Source: Candidatus Mediterraneibacter avicola
GTDB lineage: Bacteria > Bacillota > Clostridia > Lachnospirales > Lachnospiraceae
Direction: 5' to 3'
DNA: 33,414 bases
NCBI GenBank assembly: GCA_019115385.1
Contig: DXDR01000054.1
Coordinates: forward strand, 1 to 33,414
Shown here: positions 5,220 to 29,327 of the stretch, in pieces
Numbering within the stretch: the first letter of the stretch is position 1
How the letters are laid out: the number at the start of each line of letters is the position of its first letter
Position numbers and translations under genes: made by a program
The notes under the pieces: generated by a model
What the model saw: the letters and a program-made list of their open reading frames with translations, nothing else
Told to the model about the DNA's origin: nothing
Database searches by the model: none

Positions 5220-5684
5220 ATGGCTAAAACAGAGAAAAAGCTAATCGCCAACAATAAAAAAGCGTATCACGATTATTTCATCCTGGAAAAATATGAAGCC
5301 GGAATCGTGCTCCACGGCACAGAGGTAAAGTCCCTCCGTATGGGGAAATGCAGCATCAAAGAAGCGTTTATCCGGGTAGAATCCGGCGAAATGTTCATCT
5401 ATGGAATGCACATATCTCCATACGAAAAAGGAAACATCTTCAACAAAGATCCGATGCGGGTGAAAAAACTCCTCCTGCACAAAAAAGAGATTGACAAAAT
5501 TTTTGGAAAGATGAAAGAGCAGGGAAACACGGTTGTGCCCCTTCAGGTCTACTTCAGCGGCAGTCTGGTAAAAGTAGAGATTGGCCTGGCAAAGGGGAAA
5601 AAATTGTATGATAAAAGGAACGATATAGCAAAAAAAGACCAGAAAAGAGAGGCACAGAGAGAATTTAAAGTAAGAAATCTGTAA
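5220..5684 (+). CDS. smpB: SsrA-binding protein SmpB
   Basis: Binds tmRNA and carries it to ribosomes stalled on non-stop mRNA. The 154-residue protein has the SmpB beta-barrel, with the conserved stretch [16 protein letters not shown], and the basic C-terminal tail [23 protein letters not shown] (given here in part), which enters the decoding centre. The start follows an AGAGAGGTTGTC leader with an AGAGG Shine-Dalgarno. It lies 35 AT-rich bases after rnr, so the two are probably co-transcribed. The stop codon touches the left arm of a 17-bp palindrome shared with the convergent HAD gene. Its RNA partner ssrA is 4.1 kb further on, on the other strand. Confidence 0.97.
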
Positions 5685-5722
5685 ATTCTTCTAAAAGGGG
5701 TCAGTCCCCTTTTAGAAGAATT
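5684..5722. terminator. Bidirectional terminator between smpB and the HAD gene
   Basis: A perfect 17-bp inverted repeat (5684-5700 and 5706-5722) with a 5-base TCAGT loop. Each arm has GGGG next to the loop and AT-rich ends, giving U-runs in either direction. It starts at the last base of the smpB stop and contains the last codons and stop of the convergent HAD gene. Confidence 0.85.
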
Positions 5723-7899: not shown

Positions 7900-7947
7900 G
7901 CTGCCGCACTGATCACTCAGTGCGGCAGCTGTCTCGGGTGATTTTTT
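7900..7947. terminator. Terminator between the endolysin gene and the yitT-like gene
   Basis: A perfect 13-bp inverted repeat (GCTGCCGCACTGA, loop TCAC, TCAGTGCGGCAGC; 7900-7929) is followed on the plus strand by a T7 run at 7941-7947. It starts 5 bases after the endolysin stop and includes the stop region of the convergent yitT-like gene, so it can serve both, although the minus-side U-tract is poor. Confidence 0.75.
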
Positions 7948-8623
7948 TAAGCAGATCCATCTTCCCGTTTTTGGCAGGACGATTGACCGGGGGATATAAT
8001 TTCAGGTTCTGTATCCGATCGATCAGGAAGGATGAAATGACGACTGTAATGACAGAAAACATAATCTTTGAAAAAGAAATATAGGTCAGAGAAAGGCCCA
8101 ACACAACAAGGTCTGTAAAAAGATACGCGCGGGACAAGCGCATGTGGGTAACACGCTGAATGGTGAGGGCCAATGCGTCATCTCCGCCGCTGGATCCTCC
8201 CTGCCGTACGATTATGCCAACGCCAATTCCGACAAAAGTTCCTCCACAGACAGCAGCCATCAGTGGATATGCCGATAAATCCGGGAGCATCGGCGGGAAT
8301 AACTCCCAGATTTTATAGAAAAGCGATACGGATAAAGTCGATATAACTGATATTTTGATGAAATTTCCGCCTAAATATTTAAACGCAGTCAGATAGCAGG
8401 CAATATCCAGCACCGGCGTAATATAAGCGGGAGAAATGCCTAGCCAATGGTCTGCTAAAAGCATCAGTCCAATTACTCCGCCTTCTGTGATGCCGGTTTG
8501 CTGGTGTATATTATGGATGCCAAAAGAACAGATCATTGCTCCAAGCATAATAAATGCGATTGTTTTGTAAGATAATCCGTCTATTAGTTTTTTGTAAAAA
8601 AAAGATAATTGTTTTTCAGCCAT
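7913..8623 (-). CDS. YitT-family (DUF161) membrane protein
   Basis: Integral membrane protein of unknown function, 236 residues with about five or six hydrophobic helices. The family signatures are present: GGVIGLMLL near the second helix and the glycine-rich RQGGSSGGDDALAL motif. Many family members carry a C-terminal soluble DUF2179 domain. Here the protein ends soon after the last helix with a basic tail, so this is the short form. It is divergent from a MerR-type regulator gene. The promoter has the 19-bp spacer and central palindrome used by MerR activators, so it is probably induced by the effector of that regulator. Its substrate cannot be read from the sequence. Confidence 0.85.
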   Translation of the reverse strand: MAEKQLSFFYKKLIDGLSYKTIAFIMLGAMICSFGIHNIHQQTGITEGGVIGLMLLADHWLGISPAYITPVLDIACYLTAFKYLGGNFIKISVISTLSVSLFYKIWELFPPMLPDLSAYPLMAAVCGGTFVGIGVGIIVRQGGSSGGDDALALTIQRVTHMRLSRAYLFTDLVVLGLSLTYISFSKIMFSVITVVISSFLIDRIQNLKLYPPVNRPAKNGKMDLLKKITRDSCRTE

Positions 8624-9539: not shown

Positions 9540-9612
9540 TGGAGTATACGGGATTCGAACCCGTGGCCTCCACAATGCGAATGTGGCGCGCTCCCAACTG
9601 CGCTAATACCCC
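9540..9612 (-). tRNA. tRNA-Ala (anticodon CGC)
   Basis: 73-nt cloverleaf read on the minus strand: acceptor GGGGTAT/ATACTCC with the alanine identity pair G3-U70, D-stem GCGC/GCGC, anticodon stem CCACA/TGTGG with loop TTCGCAT, T-arm ACGGG-TTCGAAT-CCCGT, discriminator A. The CCA end is not encoded. A run of T follows directly, which may terminate the ssrA-tRNA transcript. Confidence 0.93.
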
Positions 9613-9625
9613 ATTTTTAACTTTT

Positions 9626-9648
9626 GGAAACCATCATGTGCGGTTTCC
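9626..9648. other. Hairpin between tRNA-Ala and tRNA-Val
   Basis: Perfect 7-bp inverted repeat GGAAACC/GGTTTCC with a 9-base loop fills most of the 39-base spacer between the two tRNAs. It has no U-tract on the transcribed strand, so a processing signal is more likely than a terminator. Confidence 0.5.
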
Positions 9649-9651
9649 CCA

Positions 9652-9724
9652 TGGAAACAACGGGGCTCGAACCCATGACCTCCCGCTAGTCAGGCGAGCG
9701 CTCTCCCAGCTGAGCTATGTTTCC
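9652..9724 (-). tRNA. tRNA-Val (anticodon GAC)
   Basis: 73-nt cloverleaf on the minus strand: acceptor GGAAACA/TGTTTCC, D-stem GCTC/GAGC, anticodon stem CTCGC/GCGGG, loop CTGACTA giving anticodon GAC, T-arm ATGGG-TTCGAGC-CCCGT, discriminator A, CCA not encoded. Position 37 is T, whereas almost all tRNAs have a purine there. The variable loop is short, which excludes serine. Confidence 0.88.
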
Positions 9725-9766
9725 AAGTTCTTAATGAAAAACGGCACCCCATCAGTGCGCCGCGAA

Positions 9767-10108
9767 TGGAGCTGGCGGGAATCGAACCCGCGTCCAAAAA
9801 CCCATCCCATGTACTTCTACTATCATAGTCCGTTCTTTTTCATTCCCTCTGCCGCACGGAAACGAACATCCTTGCGGGTTCAGTAGCTTCATATTACGCC
9901 TGACGGTTCAAAGCTTTGCCGTCATCGTTTCTCACATCTTTGATACCGGATTCCCGATGTGTGAGTGCGCCGGGAGCGGCATGCAGCATTTAGGCTGCAG
10001 CTAATTCGTAATTATCGTTAGCGTTTAATTTTAATTTTGCGATTTGACGCATCTGCCTGCGGATAGCTTCTCCATCTTCAGGATCCCTGTCGAAACCAGT
10101 ACAACCCC
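9767..10108 (-). ncRNA. ssrA: Transfer-messenger RNA (tmRNA)
   Basis: Rescues stalled ribosomes with SmpB. It is alanylated, enters the empty A site, and its reading frame adds a degradation tag. 342 nt on the minus strand. The 5' end GGGGTTGTACTGGTTTCGACAG pairs with the 3' end CAGCTCC through a 7-bp acceptor stem that includes a G-U third pair for alanine charging. The T-arm is GCGGG-TTCGATT-CCCGC. The discriminator is A and CCA is not encoded. The tag frame lies in the middle. It leads a minus-strand cluster ssrA, tRNA-Val, tRNA-Ala and has its own promoter. In many Firmicutes it lies directly after smpB; here 4.1 kb of accessory genes separate them. Confidence 0.96.
9990..10040 (-). other. 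tmRNA tag reading frame
   Basis: The resume codon GCA at 10040-10038 opens a 16-codon frame ending in TAA (9992-9990) that encodes AKLKLNANDNYELAAA. An alanine from the charged tmRNA precedes it. The terminal hydrophobic ELAAA is the kind of C-terminus recognised by ClpXP. The tag is longer than the 10-residue E. coli tag. Confidence 0.9.
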
Positions 10109-10203: not shown

Positions 10204-10225
10204 GATTTCCTTCAGAAAAATATGG

Positions 10226-10385
10226 AACAGTTCAGCCCGCGCCATTCGGAAAACCGCACTGCGTGCTTACTGCGGCTGGCGCCGCCGTTTTCCTCATAGG
10301 CTGGCGTTCAGCACATCTGCACATCAGGAGACGGATTCTTATGCAAGCATAAATCTGTCTCCTGATGACAGATGGCTGAACTGTT
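10226..10385 (+). repeat. 160-bp structured repeat, copy 1
   Basis: A 160-bp element bounded by a perfect 12-bp terminal inverted repeat, AACAGTTCAGCC and GGCTGAACTGTT. Inside are two further palindromes. The first pairs GGAAAAC with GTTTTCC. The second pairs CATCAGGAGACGGATT with its near-complement and continues through TTATG/CATAA around a CAAG tetraloop. It differs from copy 2 at 5 of 160 positions by direct comparison. No coding capacity or transposase is present. It lies upstream of the phospholipase gene, in the gap after ssrA. No clear target-site duplication is seen. The rest of the 412-base gap holds the ssrA promoter and an AT-rich leader. Confidence 0.9.
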
Positions 10386-10520
10386 ACTTAACATAAATTT
10401 TAATATTCAAAAGCGCCGCAGAACTGGATTTTTTGCTGCATATGTGTGATAATATGTAACGGCGGGCTGGCTGCAAACGGCCGGGGCGCCATGACAAACC
10501 GACAGAAAAGAGGAGTTTAT

Positions 10521-12725: not shown

Positions 12726-12768
12726 TGAGAGTCGTTTCCTTCTGCCACATTTTATGTAAAAGGAAAGT

Positions 12769-12928
12769 AACAGTTCAGCCCGCGCCATTCGGAAAACCGC
12801 ACTGCGTGCTTACTGCGGCTGGCGCCGCTGTTTTCCTCATAGAATGGCGCTCAGCACATCTGCACATCAGGAGACGGATTCTTATGCAAGCATAAATCCG
12901 TCTCCTGATGACAGATGGCTGAACTGTT
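12769..12928 (+). repeat. 160-bp structured repeat, copy 2
   Basis: Same length, orientation and terminal inverted repeat as copy 1 (13 bp here if the flanking T/A is counted), with 5 differences. Here the first internal hairpin is better paired: GCGCCATTC matches GAATGGCGC exactly, next to GGAAAAC/GTTTTCC. It lies 43 bases after the MFS stop and may also act as its transcription terminator. The 337-base gap that contains it also holds the ABC operon promoter and a leader hairpin. Confidence 0.9.
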
Positions 12929-12978
12929 ATACTAAAATATGAAATAAATCTGAAATCAGACATATTGATGGAAATTCA

Positions 12979-17525: not shown

Positions 17526-20054
17526 ATGGAACAATATAATGTGACGGGCATGAGCTGCGCTGCCTGCAGCGCCCGCGTGGAAAAGGCTGTTTCTGAGGTG
17601 CCGGGAGTCACGTCCTGCTCCGTAAGCCTTCTGACGAACTCTATGGGAGTGGAGGGAAGCGCTTCCCCTGCAGATATTATCGCAGCGGTGGAAGAGGCAG
17701 GATACGGCGCGGCACAGAAAGGAAAAGAACCAGGCGGAACGACAGCAGCAGGATCCGCCGCTGCCGCCGAGGATTCCCTGAAAGACACAGAGACTCCGAA
17801 GATGAAAAAGAGGCTGATCGCATCCCTTTGCTTTCTGATCCCGCTGATGTATTTTTCAATGGGGCATATGATGTGGAACTGGCCCGTTCCTTCTTTTATG
17901 GAAGGCAATCATGTGGCGATAGGGATTCTGCAGCTTCTCCTGACCGGCATTGTCATGGTGATCAACCAGAAATTTTTTATCAGTGGATTTCGGGGGCTGA
18001 TCCACAGAGCCCCGAACATGGACACCCTGGTGGCCCTGGGTGCGGGAGCATCCTTCGTATGGAGCACGTATGCACTCTTTGCCATGACGGATGCACAGAT
18101 GCGGGGGGATATGGATGGCGTCATGTCCTATATGCATGAGTTCTACTTTGAGTCGGCAGCTATGATCCTGACTCTGATCACAGTAGGTAAGATGCTTGAG
18201 GCCAGGTCAAAGGGAAAGACAACGGATGCGTTGAAAAGCCTGATGAAACTTGCCCCGAAGACCGCCCGGGTGCTGCGCAGCGGCGTGGAAGAGGAAGTGG
18301 GCATTGAGCAGGTGAGAAAAGGCGATATATTTGTGGTCAGACCGGGAGAAAATATACCGGTTGACGGTATCGTGCTGGAAGGACACAGCGCAGTTAATGA
18401 GTCAGCCCTTACCGGGGAGAGTATCCCGGTGGATAAAAAAGAAGGAGACCAGGTATCGGCCGCTACTTTGAATCAGTCCGGTTTCATCAAATGTGAGGCG
18501 TCCAGGGTAGGCGAAGATACTACTCTTTCCCAGATCATACAGATGGTAAGCGATGCAGCCGCCACGAAAGCGCCCATTGCGAAAGTTGCGGATCGTGTAT
18601 CTGGAGTATTTGTTCCGGCAGTGATCGGGATTGCCCTTGTAACCATCGCAGTATGGCTTGCGGCAGGGCAGACACTGGGATTTGCTCTTGCAAGAGGAAT
18701 ATCAGTTCTGGTGATCAGCTGCCCCTGCGCGCTGGGGCTGGCGACTCCGGTGGCGATCATGGTGGGGAACGGTGTGGGAGCCAAAAATGGAATTATGTTT
18801 AAAACTGCGGTTTCCCTGGAGGAAACCGGGAAGACACAGATCGTTGCTCTTGATAAAACAGGAACCATTACAAGCGGAGACCCACGCGTGACTGATCTGA
18901 TTCCATTGGAAGGCGTGACGGAGGAAGAACTTTTGTCCAGCGCTTATGCGCTTGAAAAGAAAAGTGAGCATCCTCTGGCCCGTGCGATCCTGGCGCTGGC
19001 AGAGGAAAGACAGATTTCCGGCGAAACAGATACGACCGATTTCCGGGCGGTTCCCGGAAACGGGCTGACCGGAAATCTGGGTACAGACCTTCTGGCCGGA
19101 GGAAATTTTAAATTTATCAGTGAAAATGCCGAAGTCCCTGCCGAGACAAAGGATCTGGCGGAAAATCTTGCCCAGGAAGGTAAGACGCCGCTGTTTTTCA
19201 GCAGAAACGGGAAACTTATCGGTGTGATCGCTGTGGCCGACGTGATCAAGGAAGACAGCCCGAAGGCGGTAAAAGAACTGCAGAATATGGGAATACATGT
19301 GGTCATGCTGACCGGAGACAACGAGCGCACCGCAAATGCGATTGGCAGACAGGCAGGTGTGGACGAGGTGATCGCCGGCGTTCTGCCGGACGGAAAGGAA
19401 AGCGTGATCCGCCGCCTGAAGAAAAAAGGTAAGGTTGCTATGGTAGGCGACGGCATCAATGATGCTCCTGCACTTACCAGAGCAGATATGGGAATCGCCA
19501 TCGGGGCGGGAACCGATATCGCCATCGACGCGGCGGACGTGGTGCTGATGAAGAGCCGGTTGACCGACGTGCCTGCGGCAATCCGTATGAGCCGGGCTAC
19601 ACTTCGGAATATCCATGAAAATCTGTTCTGGGCATTCTTTTACAACGTGATCGGCATTCCTCTGGCAGCAGGGGTTTGGATCCCGATTTTCGGACTTCAG
19701 TTAAATCCCATGTTCGGGGCTGCGGCCATGAGCCTGTCAAGCTTCTGCGTGGTGACAAATGCACTGCGTCTCAACTGGTTTAAGCTGTATGATGCAGGCA
19801 GAGATAAAAAAATAAAATCAAAAAGAAAACAGGAGGAAACAACAATGGTAAAAACAATGAAAATCGAAGGAATGATGTGCGGACACTGCGAAGCAAGAGT
19901 AAAGAAAGTGCTGGAGGCGCTTGCCGAGGTAGATCAGGCGGAAGTCAGCCATGAGGCAGGAACAGCGGTCGTAACCCTGAATGCAGAAATCGCTGACGAT
20001 GTGCTGAAAAAGGCAGTGGAGGATCAGGACTATAAAGTAACAGATATACAGTAG
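17526..20054 (+). CDS. copA: Copper-exporting P1B-ATPase CopA with C-terminal CopZ-like domain
   Basis: Pumps Cu(I) out of the cell using ATP. 842 residues. In order: an N-terminal metal-binding domain with GMSCAAC (C11, C14), two N-terminal helices, six core helices, the actuator motif LTGES, the transport site CPC at about 399-401, the phosphorylation site DKTGT at about 443, SEHPL in the nucleotide domain, TGDN and GDGINDAP near 641. After the last helix pair, a lysine-rich linker leads from codon 774 to a second heavy-metal domain with [14 protein letters not shown]. Most bacterial CopA proteins keep such domains at the N-terminus. GGAGG 8 bases before the ATG at 17526 sets the start; a TTG at 17511 overlaps that site. 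The linker has an A7 tract discussed in the findings. Confidence 0.94.
19831..20054 (+). CDS. copZ: Possible internal CopZ copper chaperone translated from within copA
   Basis: An AGGAGG at 19831-19836 stands 8 bases before the in-frame ATG at 19845. Translation there would yield a 69-residue protein, [20 protein letters not shown]..., which has the size and fold signature of CopZ/Atx1 copper chaperones (MxCxxC at its residues 10-14). Such a site is what an independent gene would have, yet no stop codon separates it from copA in this sequence. The product may therefore be made both as the C-terminal domain of CopA and as a free chaperone. Coordinates include the binding site; the coding part starts at 19845. 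Confidence 0.6.
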
Positions 20055-20154
20055 ATTTGGATTCGTGTGTGTGGGGACGCCGGGAGGGACTGGTGTGTCC
20101 TACATCACCACACCAGTCCCTCCCGGCTGATTTCTCCCACACAAATCCAAATCT
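20053..20154. repeat. Palindromic convergent-gap repeat, copy A
   Basis: Palindrome that fills the whole gap from the copA stop to the ppiB stop. The outer arms begin AGATTTGGATT on both strands. The core is a perfect 19-bp arm, GCCGGGAGGGACTGGTGTG at 20079-20097, with its complement at 20109-20127 and an 11-base loop. A 25-base block including this core recurs in copy B. It probably terminates both convergent transcripts. Confidence 0.88.
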
Positions 20155-20672
20155 TATACTTTTTCAGGCTCCGGATATTCTTCTCCGAAAGTTTCGACGG
20201 TTACCATCTTTATTCTCTGATCTTCCAACGGGCGGTCTCTGAAGTCTGTCGCCGTGCAGGCGATTTTATCCACGATATCCATTCCCTCTGTGATCTTCCC
20301 GAAGGCAGCATAAGCTCCGTCCAGATGCGGGGATTTTTCATGCATGATGAAAAACTGGCTTCCCGCGGAGTCAGGGTGCATGGCTCTCGCCATGGAAAGG
20401 ACGCCCGGGTCGTGGGCAAGGTCATTTGTGAAACCGTTCTGAGCGAACTCGCCCTTTATGGAATATCCCGGGCCGCCCATCCCGGTTCCGGCCGGACATC
20501 CGCCCTGGATCATAAATCCGCGGATGACGCGGTGGAAGATCAGACCGTTATAGAATCCCTTATTTACCAATGAAATAAAATTATTCACTGTGTTCGGCGC
20601 GATATCCGGGTAAAGTTCCGCTTTCATGATATCGCCGTTTTCCATTTCAAATGTGACAACTGGATTTGCCAT
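20154..20672 (-). CDS. Cyclophilin-type peptidyl-prolyl cis-trans isomerase
   Basis: Cytoplasmic folding helper that isomerises Xaa-Pro bonds; ppiB-like. 172 residues without a signal peptide. Cyclophilin core motifs are seen: NTVNNFISLVNKGFYNG, then FHRVIRGFMIQGG with the catalytic arginine, GSQFFIM, and HLDGAYAAFGKI. The tryptophan that confers cyclosporin sensitivity in many members is replaced (leucine in HLDG). GAGGAA upstream of the ATG at 20672 sets the start. A longer open frame from 20792 would run through a fragment of the 160-bp repeat and is not credible. It is convergent with copA and divergent from the MsmX-like gene. Confidence 0.92.
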   Translation of the reverse strand: MANPVVTFEMENGDIMKAELYPDIAPNTVNNFISLVNKGFYNGLIFHRVIRGFMIQGGCPAGTGMGGPGYSIKGEFAQNGFTNDLAHDPGVLSMARAMHPDSAGSQFFIMHEKSPHLDGAYAAFGKITEGMDIVDKIACTATDFRDRPLEDQRIKMVTVETFGEEYPEPEKV

Positions 20673-20709
20673 AGTCAATTCCTCTTTTCTAAATTTTTTG
20701 TTAAATGGT

Positions 20710-20743
20710 AACAGTTCAGCCCGCGCCATTCGGAAAACCGCAC
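20710..20743 (+). repeat. 160-bp structured repeat, truncated copy 3
   Basis: 34 bases identical to the first 34 of copies 1 and 2, from AACAGTTCAGCC through CGGAAAACCGCAC; similarity then stops abruptly. It lies 38 bases upstream of the cyclophilin start, on its leader side. It is a remnant or partial copy of the element. Confidence 0.85.
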
Positions 20744-20849
20744 ATAGCTTTGGACACAGTGCTATTGTATCGGATTTGAACAGATTCGTCAAACCGGCGT
20801 TATGGTTGAAATGTACACTTTTGTCCAGCTTTTTTAGTTACTCGTGCCA

Positions 20850-20878
20850 TTGTTCATTCTGCGTTTACGATTTATACT
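20850..20878 (+). promoter_or_regulatory. Candidate promoter of the MsmX/UgpC-like gene
   Basis: TTGTTC (20850-20855), 17 bases, TATACT (20873-20878). The predicted start lies about 40 bases before the ATG, with GGAGG in the leader. Confidence 0.55.
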
Positions 20879-20924
20879 TATTCCAGAATCAACGATAACA
20901 AGTAATTTAAGGAGGCTATATAAA

Positions 20925-22037
20925 ATGGCAAGTTTATCACTCGAGGGCATTCAGAAAATTTATCCGAACGGGTTCCACGCTGTTAAGGACTTTAATCTTG
21001 AGATTGAAGATAAAGAGTTTATCATCTTCGTAGGACCTTCCGGCTGCGGAAAATCTACCACGCTTCGTATGATCGCAGGTCTGGAGGATATTTCCGGCGG
21101 CACACTGAAGATTGACGGCAAGGTTATGAACGATGTAGAGCCGAAGGACCGCGATATCGCAATGGTATTCCAGAACTACGCGCTGTATCCGCACATGACC
21201 GTATATGATAACATGGCGTTTGGACTGAAACTTCGTAAAGTTCCGAAAGATGAGATCGACAAGAAAGTCCGCGAGGCAGCCAGGATCCTCGACCTTGAGA
21301 AGCTGCTTGACCGTAAGCCGAAGGCTCTTTCCGGCGGACAGAGACAGCGTGTTGCTATGGGACGTGCGATCGTTCGTAATCCGAAGGTATTCCTTATGGA
21401 CGAGCCTCTCTCCAACCTGGACGCAAAACTGAGAGTTCAGATGCGTATTGAGATTTCCAAGCTTCATGAAAATCTGGGCGCTACGATCATCTATGTAACA
21501 CATGACCAGACAGAGGCTATGACGCTTGGTACGAGGATCGTTGTTATGAAAGACGGAGTTGTTCAGCAGGTAGATACACCGCAGAACCTTTACAATACAC
21601 CGTGCAACCTGTTTGTTGCAGGATTTATCGGATCTCCGCAGATGAACTTTATGGATGCGGTATGTAAAGTAGACGGAAACGATGTAACACTTACAGTTGG
21701 AAAACATGTCCTGAAAGTACCGGCATCCAAGAGAAAAGCGCTTATTGAAGGCGGATATGACGGAAAGACGGTTGTCCTCGGAATCCGTCCGGAAGATGTA
21801 CATGATTCCGAAGCATTTATCAGCAACTCACAGGACAGCATTATTGAGTCGACGATCAAAGTTTATGAGCTGCTTGGAGCAGAAGTATTCCTTTACTTTG
21901 ACGTAGAGGGAACACAGATGACAGCACGTGTAAATCCGCGTACTACTCTGAGAACAGGCGACAAAGCTGTATTTGCTCTGGACATGGAAAAGATCCATGT
22001 GTTTGACAAAGAAACAGAGTTGACGATTACAAACTAA
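20925..22037 (+). CDS. Sugar ABC transporter ATP-binding protein, MsmX/UgpC type
   Basis: ATPase energising carbohydrate uptake ABC importers of the CUT1 class. 370 residues. Walker A is GPSGCGKST (37-45), the Q-loop lies in MVFQNYALYPHMT, the signature is LSGGQRQRVAMGRAI, Walker B is VFLMDEPLSNLDAKL, and the switch histidine is in YVTHDQTEAM. The C-terminal third is the OB-like regulatory domain (IGSPQMNFMD, GIRPEDVHDSE) typical of MalK/MsmX/UgpC. No permease or binding protein is adjacent, which fits the shared MsmX-type ATPase that serves several sugar importers elsewhere in the genome. Codon use resembles nifJ and suggests strong expression. GGAGG precedes the ATG at 20925; a start at 20844 is not supported. 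The next gene encodes a PucR-like regulator. Confidence 0.93.
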   Translation: MASLSLEGIQKIYPNGFHAVKDFNLEIEDKEFIIFVGPSGCGKSTTLRMIAGLEDISGGTLKIDGKVMNDVEPKDRDIAMVFQNYALYPHMTVYDNMAFGLKLRKVPKDEIDKKVREAARILDLEKLLDRKPKALSGGQRQRVAMGRAIVRNPKVFLMDEPLSNLDAKLRVQMRIEISKLHENLGATIIYVTHDQTEAMTLGTRIVVMKDGVVQQVDTPQNLYNTPCNLFVAGFIGSPQMNFMDAVCKVDGNDVTLTVGKHVLKVPASKRKALIEGGYDGKTVVLGIRPEDVHDSEAFISNSQDSIIESTIKVYELLGAEVFLYFDVEGTQMTARVNPRTTLRTGDKAVFALDMEKIHVFDKETELTITN

Positions 22038-22148
22038 TGATTTAAAATCTGAATAGTAGCTTAGCGCGGTTGCGAAGATGCTATTCGCTTTCGGCGGCTC
22101 AACTAGTACACCAGGCCGTCCGGTTACCGCTTATTATTAAAAAGGAGG

Positions 22149-22176
22149 GGCTGCACGAACCAGGTGCAGCCTTTTT
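22149..22176 (+). terminator. Terminator or attenuator before the PucR-like gene
   Basis: GGCTGCAC and GTGCAGCC with a 7-base loop, followed by TTTTT. It lies 112 bases after the ATPase stop and only 20 before the regulator start, so the regulator may depend on readthrough. The preceding stretch contains another weak stem, GAATAG/CTATTC (near 22052-22089). Confidence 0.85.
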
Positions 22177-22195
22177 AAATGTACTGGAGATTTTT

Positions 22196-23101
22196 ATGGA
22201 CCACACACCGGAACTTGAAAAGGCACTGAGCGAACTGAAACGGATCACAGGGATCACAATGGATGTAAAGGCAGATACGCCCGGGGAGACAGAGCAGGCC
22301 CTTTCCCAGATCCGCTGCCTGTGTGCCGCTTACAAAGAAAAATATAACAAAGCGGACTTCCTGAAAAGCCTTATGACAGACGGCATCCCTTCTTACGATA
22401 TCAGTGAGAGGGCGGCACGTCTTCATATTGCGCCGGAAGAAAAAAGGGTGCTGTTTCTTCTTGAAGCAAAAACAATGGACGAGACGCTGACAGAGATTTT
22501 AAAAAATCTCTTCCCTTCCCAGAGCAAAACCTATCTTGTTCCTGTAAGCGGGAACAGTATCGCTGTGCTGCGTCCACTGAAATCCGGGGAGACGCCGGAG
22601 TCTATGAACCAGGTGGCGCGTACCATTATCGACACGCTGAATACAGAAGCGCTGGCTCATGTACAGCTATCTTACAGCGCAGTTGTTGATACCCTGGCTG
22701 ATCTTTCCGCCGCCTTTCGGGAAACCAGCCTGGCGCTGAAAGTGGGAAAACTGTTCTATTCTGAGCAGACAGTTTTTCCTTATAACGAACTGGGGATAGG
22801 AAGGCTGATCTACCAGCTCCCTGTTTCTCTGTGCGAGAGTTTTCTGCAGGAAATTTTCGGTAAGGATATTCCAGAATCTTTTGATGAAGAAACCACTTCG
22901 GCAGTTAATAAATTTCTTCAGAATAACCTCAATATCGCAGAGACTTCCCGGCAGCTTCATATGCACAGAAACACGCTGATCTACCGCCTGGAACAGATCC
23001 AGAAACGGACAGGCCTGGATCTGCGGCTTTTTGAAGATGCTATGACATTTAAGATCGCCACTATGGTAATCAACTATCTACACACAGAAAGGAACCAGTA
23101 A
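22196..23101 (+). CDS. PucR/CdaR-type transcriptional regulator
   Basis: Probable DNA-binding regulator of 301 residues. The C-terminal 60 residues form the PucR-family HTH (HTH_30): NKFLQNNLNIAETSRQLHMHRNTLIYRLEQIQKRTGLDLR (quoted in part), a hallmark of PucR and sugar-diacid regulators CdaR. The middle region (about 80-220) resembles the GGDEF-like domain of CdaR proteins without its catalytic signature. The N-terminus is short and gives no clear sensor domain. The start at 22196 follows TGGAG. An upstream in-frame ATG at 22070 would translate through the terminator and is rejected. Located between a shared sugar ATPase gene and a small membrane protein gene 3 bases downstream, it may respond to carbohydrate state. 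Confidence 0.82.
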   Translation: MDHTPELEKALSELKRITGITMDVKADTPGETEQALSQIRCLCAAYKEKYNKADFLKSLMTDGIPSYDISERAARLHIAPEEKRVLFLLEAKTMDETLTEILKNLFPSQSKTYLVPVSGNSIAVLRPLKSGETPESMNQVARTIIDTLNTEALAHVQLSYSAVVDTLADLSAAFRETSLALKVGKLFYSEQTVFPYNELGIGRLIYQLPVSLCESFLQEIFGKDIPESFDEETTSAVNKFLQNNLNIAETSRQLHMHRNTLIYRLEQIQKRTGLDLRLFEDAMTFKIATMVINYLHTERNQ

Positions 23102-23104
23102 ACA

Positions 23105-23605
23105 ATGAATGACGCACTCTATGAACTGATAGTAGCACGTAAACCAAGGCCATATGACCTGATCGTCCGCATACTTGTTATTTTTCTCATTATCGCTGTT
23201 GCTGTCGGCGGTATGCCCTTTATCGGTATGTCGGCTTTCCTTGCAGCCGTACTTATCGCTGTCCTGGCGTATTATTTTATTTTTCCCAGGCTGAATGTGG
23301 AGTATGAGTATGCATTGCTGAATCATGATATGCAGATTGACATGATCTACAACAGAGCAAAAAGAAAATCACTGATGAATATTGATATCCAGGCAGCGGA
23401 AATCATCGCTCCCAGGCAGTCCCCGCGGCTGAAGTCTTTCCACCCGGATAAGGTATATGACTATTCTTCAGGAAACCCGTCCGCGAAAGTATTTGCGATC
23501 CATATGCCGCTGGATCAGAAAAACGTGTGTATCTATATCGAACCCGACTCAAAAATGATCGATCATATGAAACAGTGGATGGGATCCAAAATGTACCTTG
23601 ATTAG
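23105..23605 (+). CDS. Small membrane protein, DUF6106-like
   Basis: 166 residues, function unknown. Two adjacent hydrophobic segments (about residues 22-60: LIVRILVIFLIIAVAVGG and FLAAVLIAVLAYYFIF) are followed by a soluble domain with LNVEYEYALLNHDMQIDMIYNRAKRK and ending KMIDHMKQWMGSKMYLD (first stretch quoted in part). The arrangement, two helices plus a PH-like beta domain, is what I recall for Lachnospiraceae proteins labelled DUF6106; that name is from memory. It begins 3 bases after the PucR-like stop and is surely co-transcribed with it. A palindrome (copy C) follows the stop. Confidence 0.75.
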   Translation: MNDALYELIVARKPRPYDLIVRILVIFLIIAVAVGGMPFIGMSAFLAAVLIAVLAYYFIFPRLNVEYEYALLNHDMQIDMIYNRAKRKSLMNIDIQAAEIIAPRQSPRLKSFHPDKVYDYSSGNPSAKVFAIHMPLDQKNVCIYIEPDSKMIDHMKQWMGSKMYLD

Positions 23606-23699
23606 GGATTTGGATTTTATGAGTGGAGAAAGTATCCGCCGGGAAGCCATGAGGGAGCGCCGGAGGACGCTTTCTCCACTCACAATTTCAAATTCAAAT
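23603..23699. repeat. Palindromic convergent-gap repeat, copy C (divergent member)
   Basis: Fills the gap between two convergent stop codons. Perfect arms TGAGTGGAGAAAG (23620-23632) and CTTTCTCCACTCA (23670-23682) are flanked by GGATTTGGATTTT on one side and the related AATTTGAATTTG (read on the minus strand) on the other. The ATTGTGAGTGGAGAAA block resembles the left arm of copy B, while the loop lacks the 19-bp core. Confidence 0.75.
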
Positions 23700-24200
23700 T
23701 TCCATCCTGTATTCCATGATGTAGTCGTCCATGACGAATCCTCCACCGATATCCGCTTCCTGCGTATCAATGGTTTCAAACCCCAGATGCCGGTACACGG
23801 CCAGACTGTTGTCATTGTGTTTGTTGCAGGTGAGCCAGATGGCGCTGTATTCTCTTTCTCTGCATATATCTTTTAAGAAATCGAATGCCTGGGTTGCCAG
23901 ATGCCGGCCGCGGCAATCCTTCTTTATGTAGAGTTTGCTCAGAAATAATCTCCCGTCCTCCGGATGGATGCCGCAGTAGCCGCAGAATTCACCTTTGTCA
24001 AAGAACTGGTAATATTCATATCCGTTCTGGATCTGCTCAGTGAGAGCAGGATAAGACTGGAATTTATCTACCATGTAGGCAACCTGTCTCTCTCCTATGA
24101 TCGGGGTAAAATGTTCTTTCCATATGATCTCTGCAAGGTCTGCAACAGCATGTATCTGGCGGTCAGATTCAACCTTTTGTGTCTTTAGCTGTTCTTTCAT
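23694..24200 (-). CDS. GNAT-family N-acetyltransferase
   Basis: Predicted cytoplasmic acetyl-CoA-dependent acetyltransferase of 168 residues; the acceptor is unknown. The GNAT core is visible: a beta-strand region GEFCGYCGIHPEDGRLFLSKLYI, then the acetyl-CoA-binding segment KKDCRGRHLATQAFDFL (the R/Q-x-x-G-x-A-like loop is RGRHLAT) and a final LTCNKHNDNSLAVYRHLGFE motif where N and Y are typical (first stretch quoted in part). AAAGGAAG precedes the ATG. A TATAAT lies on its strand at 24292-24287, about 90 bases upstream. It is convergent with the DUF6106-like gene. Confidence 0.88.
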   Translation of the reverse strand: MKEQLKTQKVESDRQIHAVADLAEIIWKEHFTPIIGERQVAYMVDKFQSYPALTEQIQNGYEYYQFFDKGEFCGYCGIHPEDGRLFLSKLYIKKDCRGRHLATQAFDFLKDICREREYSAIWLTCNKHNDNSLAVYRHLGFETIDTQEADIGGGFVMDDYIMEYRMEI

Positions 24201-24382
24201 TTATCTATGCTTCCTTTCGTGATCTACTCCTGCAAGCAGCAGGCATGAAGCCTGTGCCCGCAGAGGGCTATTTGGTTTCTGACTGTATTATACACCATTT
24301 ACACATAAAAGTAAGGTTTAGAAATTCTGAACTTGAACAGAAAACAGAAAATGGATATGATAGAGAAAAAAGGAGAGGGAAA

Positions 24383-25051
24383 ATGTTAGAAAAGTTAAAA
24401 GAGGATGTATGCTTGACAGCGAAAAAGGCGCAAAAAGACGGTCTGTGCAAACACAAGTCGGGGAATTTCAGCGCAAGAGACCCGGAAAGCGGATATGTGG
24501 TGATCACGCCTACCGGCATTGACCGTGACCTGCTGAAGCCGGAAGATATGATCGTCATAGATATGGAGGCAGATGTAATTGAAAATGTTTCAGGGCTCAG
24601 ACCAACCAGTGAGTCGCTGATGCATCTTATGATCTACAGGCAGCGGCCGGACGTGGCGGCCATTGTCCATACCCACTCTGTCTATGCTACAGCTTTTGCG
24701 GTTTTGAACAGACCAATTCCGGCGATCGTGTATGAGGTGGCGCACCTGGGTGTTACAAAAGCCCGGATTCCGGTGGCCCCCTATGGACGCCCGGGAACAC
24801 CGGAACTGGCCGAAAGTGTAATAGGGAGCTGCAGGGAAGCGGACTGTTTTCTCCTTGAAAAGCACGGTGCAGTGGCGCTAGACAGCCGGAATATCTCCGA
24901 GGCTTTTTTAAAAGCAGCTTATATCGAAGAACTGGCGGAGCTTTACCAGCATGTGCTGGCTGTGAATAACGGGCAGGAGCCTCCGGCTTTTTCCCAGGAT
25001 GAACTCGAGAAATGGAAATATCCTTCCCAGATCCGGCTTGAAGGAAATTGA
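24383..25051 (+). CDS. Class II aldolase/adducin family protein (L-fuculose-phosphate aldolase-like)
   Basis: Zinc-dependent aldolase or epimerase family enzyme of 222 residues. Members cleave L-fuculose-1-phosphate, L-rhamnulose-1-phosphate or related sugar phosphates to dihydroxyacetone phosphate and an aldehyde. Visible signatures: KHKSGNFSARD near the start, GLRPTSES with the glutamate expected for catalysis, the zinc pair in VHTHSVYATAFA, and LLEKHGAVALD with the third histidine. AGGAGAGGG before the ATG at 24383 decides the start; the frame is open further upstream to 24179 but without a binding site. It stands alone, without kinase, isomerase or regulator neighbours, so the actual substrate is not decided. 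Confidence 0.85.
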   Translation: MLEKLKEDVCLTAKKAQKDGLCKHKSGNFSARDPESGYVVITPTGIDRDLLKPEDMIVIDMEADVIENVSGLRPTSESLMHLMIYRQRPDVAAIVHTHSVYATAFAVLNRPIPAIVYEVAHLGVTKARIPVAPYGRPGTPELAESVIGSCREADCFLLEKHGAVALDSRNISEAFLKAAYIEELAELYQHVLAVNNGQEPPAFSQDELEKWKYPSQIRLEGN

Positions 25052-25123
25052 TACGCTGCGCGGATCCAAAAAAGGGGGGATGAGCGGAGGGTGCCGTGTG
25101 GATAAAGGATGAATGAGAATATT

Positions 25124-25187
25124 ATCAGCACTCAAGTCAAAAGAGTGCTGATTTTTTGTTGACTTTTATAAATTGCTGTATTAGAAT
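25124..25187 (+). promoter_or_regulatory. CIRCE-like operator and promoter of htpG
   Basis: TCAGCACTC, nine bases, GAGTGCTGA (25125-25151) matches the HrcA operator CIRCE (TTAGCACTC-N9-GAGTGCTAA) with one compensated change per arm and exact N9 spacing. Seven bases later comes a strong promoter: TTGACT (25159-25164), 17 bases, TAGAAT (25182-25187). The predicted leader is about 110 nt. The same hairpin is followed by T6 and may also terminate the upstream aldolase transcript. Confidence 0.8.
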
Positions 25188-25300
25188 ATACACTGGATGC
25201 AGAAAACAGTCTTTTTCATAAAGAATATATATTTTTTACGGGCGCTGAGCCTGGAAATTAAGAGGCTGATACGGGTATTTTATTCAAAGGAGTGTTGGAT

Positions 25301-27358
25301 ATGGCAGTGAAAAAAGGAAATTTATCGATTGACAGTGAGAATATATTTCCGATCATAAAAAAATGGGTATATTCGGATCATGATATTTTTGTCCGGGAGA
25401 TGGTCTCCAACGGATGTGATGCGATCACAAAGCTGAAAAAGCTGGATATGATGGGAGAATATGAACTTCCTGAGGGATATAGACCGAAGATCGAAGTTAT
25501 CGTAAATCCAGAAGAGAAGACCATGAAATTTATTGATAACGGTCTTGGAATGACGGCGGACGAAGTGGAAGAGTATATTACTCAGATCGCTTTTTCCGGC
25601 GCCACCCAGTTCCTGGAAAAATATAAGGACAAGACGACAGAGGACGACATGATCGGCCATTTCGGTCTGGGATTCTACTCTGCATTTATGGTTGCAGACG
25701 AAGTGCATATTGATTCTCTCTCTTATAAGGAGGACGCCGTTCCCGTACACTGGGCGAGCCAGGGAGGCACGGAGTATGAGATGCAGGACGGAAGCAAGAC
25801 GACTGTGGGTACGGAGATCACACTCTTCCTGAACGAGGACAGCCTTGCCTTTGCAAATGAGTACCGTGCGCGTGAAGTGCTGGAAAAATATTGTTCCTTT
25901 ATGCCGGTAGAGATTTTCCTTTCAAAGGCAGACGCAGAAAAGGAGTATGAGACGATCGATGAGTCAGAGCTTCTTGACACAGATGAGATCGTGGAGCATA
26001 TTACAGAAGAGCCGAAAGAGGGAGAAGAAGGGGAGCCGAAGAAGAAAGTAAAGATCGTAAAGCGCCCGGTATCCATAAGTGACATACATCCGCTGTGGGG
26101 AAAGAACCCCAGTGAATGTACAAAGGAAGAGTACATCGATTTCTACCGCAAAGTGTTTATGGATTATAAGGAGCCGCTGTTCTGGATCCACCTGAATATG
26201 GATTATCCGTTTAATCTGAAGGGAATCCTGTATTTCCCGAAGATCAACACCGAGTATGACTCCATAGAGGGAACGATCAAGCTGTACAACAACCAGGTAT
26301 TTATCGCTGACAACATCAAAGAAGTGATACCGGAATTCCTGATGGTATTAAAAGGGGTCATCGACTGTCCGGACCTGCCTCTTAATGTTTCCAGAAGCGC
26401 CCTTCAGAACGATGGATTTGTCAACAAAGTGGCAGATTATATTTCAAAGAAAGTGGCGGATAAGCTGACCGGAATGTTTAAGACGGACCGGGAAAACTAT
26501 GAAAAATATTGGGATGATATCAGTCCGTTTATCAAATTCGGATGCCTGAAAGATGAGAAATTCGGCGAGAAAATGAAGGATTCCATGCTCTATAAGAATC
26601 TGGATCATAAATATCTGACCCTTGAAGATATAATCAAAGAGAACGCTTCCGGCCAGGAGGAGAAAGAAGGAGAGGCAGACGCAGCTCAGGCTGCAGATGC
26701 AGGCGAGGCGGCAGACGCCCAGTCAGAAGAAGAAAAGAAGGAAGAAGAGAAAACAAGCATTTATTATGTGACAGACGAGGTTCAGCAGAGCCAGTACATC
26801 AATATGTTTAAGGCCCAGGGCCAGGATGCGATCATCCTGTCTCACAATATTGACGCGGCTTTTGTGACATATCTGGAGCAGAAGCACACAGATGTACAGT
26901 TCCTGCGGATCGACGCAGACGTACATGATTCGCTGAAGGACGAGGTGGACGAATCCGAGAAGGAATCTTTCCAGAAGACTGCGGACAGTCTTGTGGAGAT
27001 ATTCAGAAAAGAGCTGGATAACGATAAACTGGATGTTAAGGTTGAAAAACTCAAAGATGATAAAGTGGCTTCCATGGCCGTGCTGTCCGAACACAGCAGG
27101 CGGATGAGCGAGATGATGAAGATGTATGGCATGGGAGGTATGGATCCGTCCATGTACGGCGGTCAGGTCACCCTGGTACTCAACGCAAATCATCCTCTGG
27201 TTCAGTTCGTGACAGAGCATAAGCGCAGCAAAAATGTGCCGATCATCTGCAGACAGCTCTACGATCTGGCAATGCTGGCTCATAAGCCGCTCAATCCAGA
27301 AGAAATGACGGCTTTCGTACAGAGAAGTAACGAAATAATGATGCTGCTGACAAAGTAG
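25301..27358 (+). CDS. htpG: Molecular chaperone HtpG (Hsp90)
   Basis: Cytoplasmic ATP-dependent chaperone of 685 residues. The N-terminal GHKL ATPase shows REMVSNGCDAITKL, DNGLGMT, and the GHFGLGFYSAFMVAD lid loop. The middle domain has the LPLNVSRSALQND motif (PLNVSRE in most Hsp90s). The C-terminal dimerisation domain ends at TK. Two charged inserts are present: a Glu/Lys-rich linker (EEPKEGEEGEPKKKVK) between N- and middle domains, and an Ala/Glu/Asp-rich insert at about 447-485 with AADAGEAADAQSEEEKKEEE. AAGGAG 8 bases before the ATG at 25301 decides the start. An upstream CIRCE-like site suggests heat-shock control by HrcA. Confidence 0.96.
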   Translation: MAVKKGNLSIDSENIFPIIKKWVYSDHDIFVREMVSNGCDAITKLKKLDMMGEYELPEGYRPKIEVIVNPEEKTMKFIDNGLGMTADEVEEYITQIAFSGATQFLEKYKDKTTEDDMIGHFGLGFYSAFMVADEVHIDSLSYKEDAVPVHWASQGGTEYEMQDGSKTTVGTEITLFLNEDSLAFANEYRAREVLEKYCSFMPVEIFLSKADAEKEYETIDESELLDTDEIVEHITEEPKEGEEGEPKKKVKIVKRPVSISDIHPLWGKNPSECTKEEYIDFYRKVFMDYKEPLFWIHLNMDYPFNLKGILYFPKINTEYDSIEGTIKLYNNQVFIADNIKEVIPEFLMVLKGVIDCPDLPLNVSRSALQNDGFVNKVADYISKKVADKLTGMFKTDRENYEKYWDDISPFIKFGCLKDEKFGEKMKDSMLYKNLDHKYLTLEDIIKENASGQEEKEGEADAAQAADAGEAADAQSEEEKKEEEKTSIYYVTDEVQQSQYINMFKAQGQDAIILSHNIDAAFVTYLEQKHTDVQFLRIDADVHDSLKDEVDESEKESFQKTADSLVEIFRKELDNDKLDVKVEKLKDDKVASMAVLSEHSRRMSEMMKMYGMGGMDPSMYGGQVTLVLNANHPLVQFVTEHKRSKNVPIICRQLYDLAMLAHKPLNPEEMTAFVQRSNEIMMLLTK

Positions 27359-27871
27359 AATTCGGATTTTGCGAAATGAACTTGACGGGGAAACCGTCCG
27401 AAAATGACAGGGGTGCTCTGCGCGGCGTGGGAAACATATCCGGGATACGGGGCGTGTATTCCTGGCTCCGCTTCGGAATCCGAGAAAAAGTAAAGGCTCC
27501 AGAACCTGATTAAAAGCAAGGCCTTAGATGAAAAAACTCGCTATGCTCGAACAATTTCATCTAAGGCCTTAACATCAGCTTCTGGACCCTCAACTTTTAC
27601 TGACAGATTCCTCCGAGTCACCATGCCCACACGCCCCGCATCTCCTATACATTCTTCCAGCGCGGAGCCCCGGCCATTTTCTACGCTTTTCAAACCGGAA
27701 GTTTCCTTTCCGCAAATTGCGGTAGAACAACAGTGAGAAGGGAGCTTTATCGCTCGTAATTGGATATATTCCAGACTGCGGCTTTCAAGGTCGGAAAAAA
27801 CCATCTTTTTAAACTATTGGGTCGGAATACAGTTCCGTGTTAGCCGGGACAGATCCGGCCTGTTTCTTCCT
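27359..27871. other. Gene-poor gap after htpG
   Basis: 513 bases without a supported gene. It contains a long imperfect palindrome (listed separately), the small palindrome CCGCAA/TTGCGG near 27709, and a hairpin GCCGG/CCGGC near 27843. A minus-strand open frame of 87 codons (27804-27541) has no Shine-Dalgarno and recognisable homology is absent, though its last 25 residues (SVKVEGPEADVKALDEIVRA) look protein-like; it could be a decayed gene end. Confidence 0.5.
27498..27586. repeat. Long imperfect palindrome downstream of htpG
   Basis: Inner arms AAGGCCTTAGATGAAA (27518-27533) and their perfect complement (27555-27570) surround a 21-base loop. The symmetry continues outward through CTGAT and TCCAGAA with a few mismatches, so total arms are about 32-36 bases. 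There is no U-tract on either side, making it an odd terminator; it looks like an inverted duplication. Confidence 0.85.
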
Positions 27872-28067
27872 GTTTGGATTCGGAATTGTGAGTGAGAGAA
27901 AACAGCCGGGAGGGACTGGTGTGGTGATGGAGGACCGTAAAGCAGCGCCGGCACTTAGAGCGCGTTCTTTGCGCTCTTAGTACCGCTGCGTCTGCGCTCC
28001 GAACGCAAGTGTGTCCTCCGACACCACACCAGTCCCTCCCGGCGTCCCCTCTCATATACAAATCCTA
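27872..28067. repeat. Palindromic convergent-gap repeat, copy B
   Basis: About 196 bases ending exactly at the pyrC stop. The core arm GCCGGGAGGGACTGGTGTG extended by GTG (27905-27926) has a perfect 22-bp complement at 28022-28043, then two mismatches and 7 more pairs (GGAGGAC/GTCCTCC). The 80-base interior folds again: GCAGCG/CGCTGC outside and CTTAGAGCGC/GCGCTCTTAG inside. The outer arms carry TTTGGATT and AGATTAGGATTTG, as in copy A. Confidence 0.88.
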
Positions 28068-29327
28068 ATCTGTATATATGATTTTGCCCCGGCATAGGGT
28101 CATTTTTATTTTCCCATACAGTTTCCAACCGGTAAACGGAGAGTTGGAGGAGCGGGAGGCGTATCCTTCCGGGCTCCACTCTTCGTCCGGGTTAAATATC
28201 ACAAGATCTGCCGCTTCTTCTGCGGCGATTTTTCCGGCAGGCAGATGATAGAGCTGAGCCGGATTGACAGTCATTTTTTCCAGAAGTTCCAGCAGGGTGA
28301 GATGCCCCGGCCGGACAAGTTCTGTGATGCCCAGGGAGAGAGCGGTCTCCAGCCCGATAATGCCGCTGGGAGCGGCGGTGATGGAGCGGGCTTTTTCCTC
28401 AGCGCTGTGAGGCGCGTGGTCCGTGGCGATCAGATCGATGGTCCCGTCGGCGAGACCATGGATCAGGGCCAGGCGGTCGTCCTCGGTACGCAGCGGCGGA
28501 TTCATTTTTGCAAGTGTTCCATATTTGGACACAGCGTCCTCGGTCAGTGTGAAGTGATGAGGAGTAGCTTCTGCGTGCAGTTTGGCGCCCATGGCCTTAA
28601 AAGTACGCACAAGTTCTACAGAACGCCCGGAACTGATGTGCTGAATGACCACATGTGCATTGGAACGCAGGGCCAGAAGACAGTCTCTTGCCACAAGGGA
28701 TTCCTCTGCGATAGCAGGAGATCCATAGATGCCAAGCTGTTCCGAGACGGAGCCATGATTGATCCCATTGTTTTTGATAAAGGATGGATCCTCCTCGTGG
28801 AGACTGATAGGAACATCGAGAGCACAGGCTTCCTCCATCGCCCGGTATAAAAATGCTGCATTACGCAGAGGAATGCCGTCATCTGTAAATCCGCAGGCTC
28901 CGGCAGCCTTCAGTGCGGCCATATCTGTCATCTCTTCTCCCTTGAGAGAGCGGGAGACAGACGCTGCCTGGCGGATATGGATATCTTCATTTTCCGCTCT
29001 GGTCAGGATATCATTCAGAGTAGCTGTATTATCCACGACCGGAGAAGTATTCGCCATGCATACGACGGTAGTGAAGCCTCCCTTTGCCGCGGACAGGGCG
29101 CCTGTGTGCAGGTCTTCCTTATAGGTGAATCCGGGATCACGGAAGTGGACGTGGGTGTCCACAAGACCGGGAGCAACGACAAGTCCTTCAGCATCTAAGA
29201 CCTCTTCCCCTGTCCGGGGAGTGAGGGAGGGGCTGATCTCCAGGATCTTCCCATCCTCAATGCGAAGGTCAGAGAAATACAGTCTCTTTGCGGCCGGGTC
29301 TGCAATCTGTCCGTTTTTGATGATCAT
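28065..29327 (-). CDS. pyrC: Dihydroorotase
   Basis: Third step of pyrimidine synthesis: closes N-carbamoyl-L-aspartate to dihydroorotate. 420 residues of the type I amidohydrolase class. Zinc-binding HVH at residues 59-61 is followed by FRDPG. Further motifs are NTSPVVDN, HEEDPSF, VIQHISSG, and ATDHAPHS with the catalytic aspartate. The start at 29327 is chosen because AAGGAGG lies 8 bases upstream, and a promoter (TGGACT, 17 bases, TATACT at 29393-29365) would start transcription downstream of the alternative ATG at 29363. It is alone here, without other pyr genes. Its 3' end joins palindrome copy B. Confidence 0.95.
   Translation of the reverse strand: MIIKNGQIADPAAKRLYFSDLRIEDGKILEISPSLTPRTGEEVLDAEGLVVAPGLVDTHVHFRDPGFTYKEDLHTGALSAAKGGFTTVVCMANTSPVVDNTATLNDILTRAENEDIHIRQAASVSRSLKGEEMTDMAALKAAGACGFTDDGIPLRNAAFLYRAMEEACALDVPISLHEEDPSFIKNNGINHGSVSEQLGIYGSPAIAEESLVARDCLLALRSNAHVVIQHISSGRSVELVRTFKAMGAKLHAEATPHHFTLTEDAVSKYGTLAKMNPPLRTEDDRLALIHGLADGTIDLIATDHAPHSAEEKARSITAAPSGIIGLETALSLGITELVRPGHLTLLELLEKMTVNPAQLYHLPAGKIAAEEAADLVIFNPDEEWSPEGYASRSSNSPFTGWKLYGKIKMTLCRGKIIYTD

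Follow-up and report, generated by a model that had tools for sequence, protein, structure and literature searches.

Palindromes in the gene gaps of the window

The window analysed here, a stretch of 33,414 nucleotides (nt) from Candidatus Mediterraneibacter avicola (GenBank assembly GCA_019115385.1, contig DXDR01000054.1), carries three long palindromes, copies A, B and C, members of a family of dispersed repeats whose placement follows the stop codons of genes. Copy A fills the 99 nt from stop to stop between two convergent genes, a copA-like P-type ATPase with HMA domains (stop codon 20052–20054) and the cyclophilin ppiB (20154–20156), and its arms, 20079–20097 and 20109–20127, are perfect over 19 nt. 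Copy C fills, likewise from stop to stop, the 88-nt convergent gap between a DUF6106 gene (stop codon 23603–23605) and a GNAT gene (23694–23696). Copy B takes up all 706 nt from the stop codon of the Hsp90 gene htpG (27356–27358) to that of an amidohydrolase gene (28065–28067), which a preliminary description of this DNA, made from the sequence alone, had named pyrC; it matches Pfam Amidohydro_1, with a DHOase match just below the cut-off. All of these neighbouring gene families were checked. The features are:

20055–20153, no strand: copy A, a palindrome without the core that occupies the whole gap between the stops of the P-type ATPase gene and ppiB
23606–23698, no strand: copy C, a core-less palindrome whose right arm overlaps the GNAT stop codon at 23694–23696
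27359–28064, plus strand: copy B, a full element, the whole interval from the htpG stop to the pyrC stop
27497–27587, plus strand: module R2 in copy B, a long stem with the apical loop AACTCGC..GCTC..ACA (cmsearch 70.9 bits, E 5e-16; one of the 13 training rows)
27872–28067, plus strand: palindrome 2 of copy B (copy B of the preliminary description), long arms enclosing module R1
27921–28027, plus strand: module R1 in copy B, a three-way junction with the GNRA tetraloop GCAA (cmsearch 110.8 bits, E 1.6e-26; one of the 31 training rows)

The preliminary description had located the three palindromes correctly and was right to place A and C between convergent genes. Each folds far more stably than expected, with z-scores of -9.7 (A), -6.8 (C) and -13.0 (B) and none of 200 shuffles as good. 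The sequence blocks said to be shared are also real: A and B have a 47-nt inverted match at 91% identity, and B and C share 22 nt in inverted orientation at 86%. The extent given for copy B, 27872–28067 (196 bp), proved too short. Both halves of the 706-nt interval are repeated elsewhere in the genome, and since 27359–27872 is among the repeated parts and holds a second, different structured module, element B spans the full length. A and C are relatives of the family that are devoid of the core.

Two structured modules and their distribution

The apical part of the copies is nearly constant, and the surrounding arms vary among copies but remain complementary. A covariance model of this apical part, module R1, built over 107 positions from 31 training sequences, reveals compensatory changes for 23 of its 35 pairs, and the share of paired cells reaches 95.8%, against 81.4% in shuffles and 27–52% when the partner column is slid. 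Module R2, which is 93 nt long and lies to the left of R1 in element B, shows compensatory changes in 27 of 31 pairs (13 sequences) around its conserved loop; the training sequences of R1 and R2 match their own models by construction. The small hairpin loop of R1 is of the GNRA type in all 104 aligned matches at E≤1e-5 (GAAA 68, GAGA 21, GCAA 10, GCGA 4, GTAA 1), with closing pairs that vary among them. These matches come from the window and from 99 of 100 stretches fetched around all 107 listed R1 copies of three genomes, M. catenae (G020), G029 and G080; they were aligned by fitting to the model, and copies of the same genome are related. A constant GNRA loop with changing closing pairs is a pattern typical of RNA, and it gives R1 a strand, which in copy B is plus. 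These substitution patterns point to selection on R1 and R2 at the RNA level.

Many elements are hairpin dimers built from two kinds of unit, and others show a single module. The window and 99 stretches together gave 27 R2 matches. For 23 of them an R1 match is no more than 900 nt away; 22 of these share its strand and lie 5' of it, with starts 146–622 nt apart, and one (L099) is on the opposite strand. Inverted R1–R1 pairs occur at some sites, and R2–R2 pairs at L221, L224, L309 and L178. Terminal inverted repeats, as used to define miniature inverted-repeat transposable elements, are present (AATTCCGGATTTATC..GATAAATCCGGAATT in G020, ATCTGTATTTGTGGGGG..CCCCCACAAATACAGAT in G061), and the ends of elements, read by eye, begin ATCTG.., AATTCCGG.., AATTCGTG.. 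or ATTTGG... Between the R2 and R1 modules of L145, near 195 kb on G020:C12, stands a hairpin of a third type, with the loop GTCCTTGCCCGTAAACGGGTGCTTTGC. At L237, in an uncultured Dorea sp., a 327-nt convergent gap after the htpG stop is full of large nested palindromes; it has no R2 match at E≤0.001 and is perhaps a third module family.

The view of the preliminary description that the copies are modular relatives, not independent terminators, agrees with their dispersal in the genome and the genus and with a common loop and junction sequence. A search of the genome and its relatives, which that description had proposed, found 8 long copies in the window's own genome by blastn with B (B included) and 11 R1 copies at E≤0.001. 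Across the genus, R1 is found in 44 of 58 Mediterraneibacter genomes (0 to 48 copies each) and R2 in 49 of 58 (0 to at least 73 copies); some genomes have R2 only, as does G081 with at least 73 R2 copies and no R1. Of 295 genomes drawn from the order, 31 carry R1, all within the window's family, and they represent 14 of 128 genera, 13 besides Mediterraneibacter. By blastn alone, 24 of 61 genomes were matched, none of the 24 outside the genus. The genome's own copies are alike over some 190 nt, and those of other species mostly in the core only.

The family had been recognised under no existing name, and this holds against Rfam at gathering and at relaxed thresholds: the window scan at gathering score gave a transfer-messenger RNA (tmRNA) and two transfer RNAs (tRNAs) only, and a relaxed scan of 27340–28090 gave 14 matches, all far below gathering. 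The tRNAs and the tmRNA lie in series at 9540–10108 on the minus strand. Blastn found no R1 match in plasmid and phage records; two 15-base exact R1 patterns occurred in 2 and 10 stretches of viral contigs, which is evidence neither way. Among the publications listed by literature searches none names the palindrome family, and our claim goes no further than that. The palindromes, modular and intergenic, have two RNA-like cores that are unlisted, and they stand in an unusually exact relation to stop codons. A separate repeat, starting GTAACAGTTCAGCCCGCGCCATTCGGAAAACCGCAC, is present in the window as two 161-nt copies that are 97% alike (10224–10386 and 12767–12929) and as a 36-nt piece upstream of ppiB (20708–20743), with a further exact copy close to an R1 element elsewhere in the genome (L085).

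Stop codons and orthologous junctions

In the fetched stretches genes were called by a simple script (open reading frames, ORFs, scored by codon log-odds) in place of an annotation pipeline; in the window this script missed the ORF 7913–8623. It placed 100 R1 copies in 99 called gaps, the other 7 of the 107 falling within predicted ORFs or at the ends of contigs; copies within one genome are not independent. The preliminary description had proposed an element spreading among convergent gaps. Tabulated by gene orientation, the 99 gaps comprise 30 convergent, 55 tandem and 14 divergent ones; the 214 gaps (≥60 nt) that serve as controls in the same stretches number 27, 137 and 50. A convergent excess does exist overall (Fisher p = 0.0003), but most gaps are tandem and the excess is uneven by genome. 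The convergent share is 13/21 in G020 (p = 3e-7), 12/46 in G029 (p = 0.056) and 5/32 in G080 (p = 1.0), and the pooled excess thus stems mainly from G020. Among the 9 classifiable copies of the 11 in the window's own genome, 2 are convergent and 7 tandem. In an independent sample of the 40 best-scoring listed R2 copies of G061 and G081, 35 of them in called gaps, 11 of 18 gaps are convergent in G061 and 0 of 17 in G081, with 5 of 55 among the pooled controls.

Nearness to a stop codon is the stronger rule. Of 100 copies, 65 have a stop on the 3' side of R1, 55 of them within 100 nt, and for 32 of the 65 the distance is 40–50 nt, the length of an arm. The other configurations within 100 nt are fewer: a start follows on the 3' side in 10 copies, and the 5' side has a stop in 16 and a start in 5. 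For the 55 tandem gaps, at no more than 60 nt from the core, a stop lies on the 3' side in 29, a stop on the 5' side in 4, and a start on either side in 3 each. Stop codons replace convergent gaps as the principle of placement.

The exact abutment on stop codons reported for the window is borne out in some other genomes. In G020 the core edge is 40–47 nt from the stop in 19 of 22 copies, and the end ..GATAAATCCGGAAT(T) is followed almost at once by the stop codon, for one unrelated gene after another; of its 13 convergent gaps, 8 also have the opposite element end 0–6 nt from the second stop (distances by eye). In G061 the terminal motif ATCTG lies within 30 nt of the stop on 26 of 29 stop-facing sides, within 3 nt on 23 and at 0 nt on 17. 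In G081 the elements end some nucleotides past the stop. Orthologous proteins end alike with or without an element (by eye), and the abutted stop codons look natural. In two genomes the distance from an element end to the natural stop, for genes unrelated to one another, is mostly 0–3 nt, which fills convergent gaps exactly and in tandem gaps leaves the region upstream of the next gene intact.

Comparison of orthologous junctions adds occupied and empty versions of the same site. The junction between the DUF6106 gene and trxB measures 32–43 nt from stop to stop in three species (G027, G070, G013), 456 nt in G020 and 221–795 nt in G004, G074, G076, G002, G021 and G063, and an insert is present at the DUF6106 stop in 7 of 10 other species examined. 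R2 was matched in three of six inserts searched (L307, L309, L311); the end motif ATTCGTGTTTG is common to L306 and L308. In G027 the 32 nt between the stops themselves form a near-perfect palindrome of arm sequence. A DegV-like junction measures 24 nt in G009, 110 in G024 and 603 in G020, and a YfcC/rubrerythrin-like junction 114 nt in G009, 74 in G024 and 197–815 in G063, G002, G074, G076 and G020 (DegV-like, YfcC and rubrerythrin-like being names read from the protein sequences without a search).

At a glyA-like tandem junction, for which nine relatives were fetched, G023, G003, G021 and G035 keep a native sequence that exceeds by about 137–168 nt what G020 retains ahead of the next start and that shows a hairpin and a T-run by eye. 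G020, G002 and G013 have three different element types there, each reaching from the stop codon to the same base before the next promoter. Different members of the family also sit at the ppiB stop in 4 of 30 loci read: copy A in the window, a full copy with the R1 core in G072, and elements with R2 matches in G063 and G074. At htpG, a family end lies 0–2 nt after the stop in 4 of 22 loci read (L221, L224, L226, L263), all four with R2 matches. The putative native terminator region is gone at two of the orthologous junctions compared, and it is this predicted terminator region whose place the elements occupy there in some genomes. Different types in one slot among relatives, with genome-typical ends, suggest homogenisation between copies or repeated replacement.

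Function, spread and related repeats

The existence of the family, its covarying structure, its copy numbers, the abutment in several genomes and the occupied and empty orthologous junctions are observed directly. Our preferred reading, which we consider probable, is of modular, non-coding repeats dispersed over the 3' slots of genes, often paired long hairpins with R1 and/or R2 inside variable self-complementary arms. The elements would act in RNA as 3'-end hairpins, as terminators and/or as protectors of the 3' end, and hairpins at transcript 3' ends could stand in for a lost terminator. In G020 a U-rich tract follows the stem in 17 of 22 copies in the sense and 18 of 22 in the antisense direction, which makes two-way intrinsic termination plausible in M. 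catenae. For comparison, what looks like an ordinary small two-way terminator is present at 5684–5722 of the window, where a 17-bp perfect inverted repeat spans the 27-nt convergent gap between smpB-like and HAD-like genes (named by eye).

The elements would spread as non-autonomous repeats that are homogenised within each genome, a process suggested by the length over which the copies of one genome match, against the core alone for most copies of other species. Abutment could arise through targeting to stop-proximal terminator hairpins, or through insertion followed by loss of the neutral DNA between stop and element. A bolder version, which we regard as rather unlikely, is a structured-RNA mobile element that targets the 3' ends of genes, accurate almost to the nucleotide at the stop codon, and so replaces the native terminator and rewires dozens of 3' ends per genome. 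Because stop codons are meaningful only in translation, such targeting would have to read mRNA 3' ends, stop-adjacent terminator hairpins or a ribosome-linked event.

Several observations weigh against a general terminator role and against precise targeting. A U-rich tract follows the stem in only 2 (sense) and 1 (antisense) of 46 copies in G029 and in 2 and 1 of 32 in G080, and with hardly any among these 78 copies, intrinsic termination is not general; downstream of the stem, the sense strand of the 100 gapped copies is richer in A than in T (p = 2e-6), opposite to the expectation for terminators. The two-way terminator of the preliminary description is plausible for G020 but not for these two genomes. 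Terminator function would at best be lineage-dependent or independent of the U-tract, and 3'-end protection or Rho-linked termination may apply in G029 and G080. Abutment, too, is not universal: the 3' side of R1 faces a start codon in 35 of 100 copies, the 3' edge of R1 lies 36–43 nt before a stop in only 5 of 11 copies of the window's own genome, and the 18 readable loci outside the genus divide equally into 9 with a stop and 9 with a start on the 3' side (a nineteenth, L329, was dropped because it had no readable core). At the glyA-like junction, G024 and G009 have R2 matches with other boundaries, and G076 has a larger insert. No mobility enzyme was identified for the family, Y1 being the transposase searched for; no parental transposon turned up in that same Y1-limited search, and no target duplication was recognised, since hardly any ancestral flank remains from which one could be read. 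Finally, sister species have many sites in common, and old age and deletion, rather than targeting, may account for part of the exact fit.

This last point leads to the alternative that survives best, survivorship, by which insertion occurs anywhere, copies in genes and promoters are lost and the neutral DNA left between stop codon and element is deleted over time, with no function and no targeting. Several sites are indeed shared between sister species, and the same account has been given for the convergent-gap enrichment of the pneumococcal repeats BOX, RUP and SPRITE in the part of that study drawn on here (PMC3049150). Against it, the distance is 0 nt on 17 of 29 and at most 3 nt on 23 of 29 sides in G061, and the spacing is near-constant in 19 of 22 copies in G020, which in our judgement is sharper than deletion drift would leave; the modules also bear the marks of strong compensatory selection, though palindrome homogenisation could mimic part of this. 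We hold survivorship to be a possible explanation that falls well short of likely.

Mobilisation of hairpin dimers by a Y1 (HUH) transposase, as in REPIN/RAYT systems, would account for the paired hairpin modules, including the inverted R1–R1 and R2–R2 pairs, and a Y1_Tnp match is indeed present in 49 of 58 genomes, 37 of them with one in a longer frame of 246–309 amino acids. Yet over the 58 genomes R1 copy number is not correlated with the number of Y1 matches (Spearman 0.17, p = 0.20) or of long ones (0.21, p = 0.11); six R1 genomes have no Y1 match, among them G072 with 28 copies and 100% completeness, eleven have Y1 without R1, and element ends read by eye do not start GTAG or CGTC. We reject a Y1/RAYT transposase as the driver for want of this correlation and think a REPIN/RAYT-like origin improbable. 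The longer-frame proteins are usually one per genome, beside IS200-like Y1 proteins. Independent intrinsic terminators whose likeness is due to chance or to convergent selection of GC-rich stems would also be strong hairpins at gene ends, some with U-tracts, but the common loop and junction sequence, R1 copy numbers of up to 48 in a single genome and the conservation of the three-way junction in 14 genera make this the most remote of the alternatives, and the alignments refute it.

Among known repeats, the nearest in organisation are BOX, RUP and SPRITE of Streptococcus pneumoniae, which in the portion of the account used here are dispersed and unusually frequent between convergent genes; for 36 coding sequences the stop codon at the 3' end comes from BOX, with no strong evidence of truncation, and SPRITE is named after its terminator-like structure (PMC3049150). 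Like BOX, the present elements are modular dispersed repeats with structured RNA potential, a likeness of organisation as laid out in that portion rather than of boxA-boxB-boxC sequences. They differ from the three pneumococcal families, so far as these are covered there, in the organism, in consisting of paired long hairpins that carry the R1 three-way junction or the R2 loop, and, in some genomes, in having both ends at stops and filling convergent gaps exactly, with the predicted native terminator region missing at two junctions. REP sequences and REPINs (BIMEs) are described, in the passages considered, as extragenic palindromic units, often in inverted head-to-head or tail-to-tail dimers, with a hypothesised role in termination or mRNA stability (PMC3733652). 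The present elements are likewise palindromic, extragenic and often in inverted dimers; compared with the REP units of those passages, they are about 190–350 nt rather than 20–40 bp long, show no GTAG/CGTC end tag by eye and have conserved RNA-like apical motifs, and they differ from REPINs with a RAYT, as represented there, in lacking a correlation with Y1 transposases and in including R1-rich genomes with no Y1 match.

Bidirectional intrinsic terminators of convergent genes are hairpins common to two converging transcripts, with a GC-rich stem that leads into a U-tract on both strands. Unlike these, the elements described here belong to a single dispersed family, reach lengths of hundreds of nucleotides and often have no U-tract. 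If structured-RNA elements do replace terminators at stop codons, dozens of near-interchangeable 3'-end modules per genome would have taken the place of individual terminators in a common gut genus, and the transcript ends of unrelated genes would evolve together. The family would then offer a test bed for how a repeat finds stop codons, and the R1 junction, which occurs in 14 genera and has no Rfam match, is a ready target for structural and functional study.

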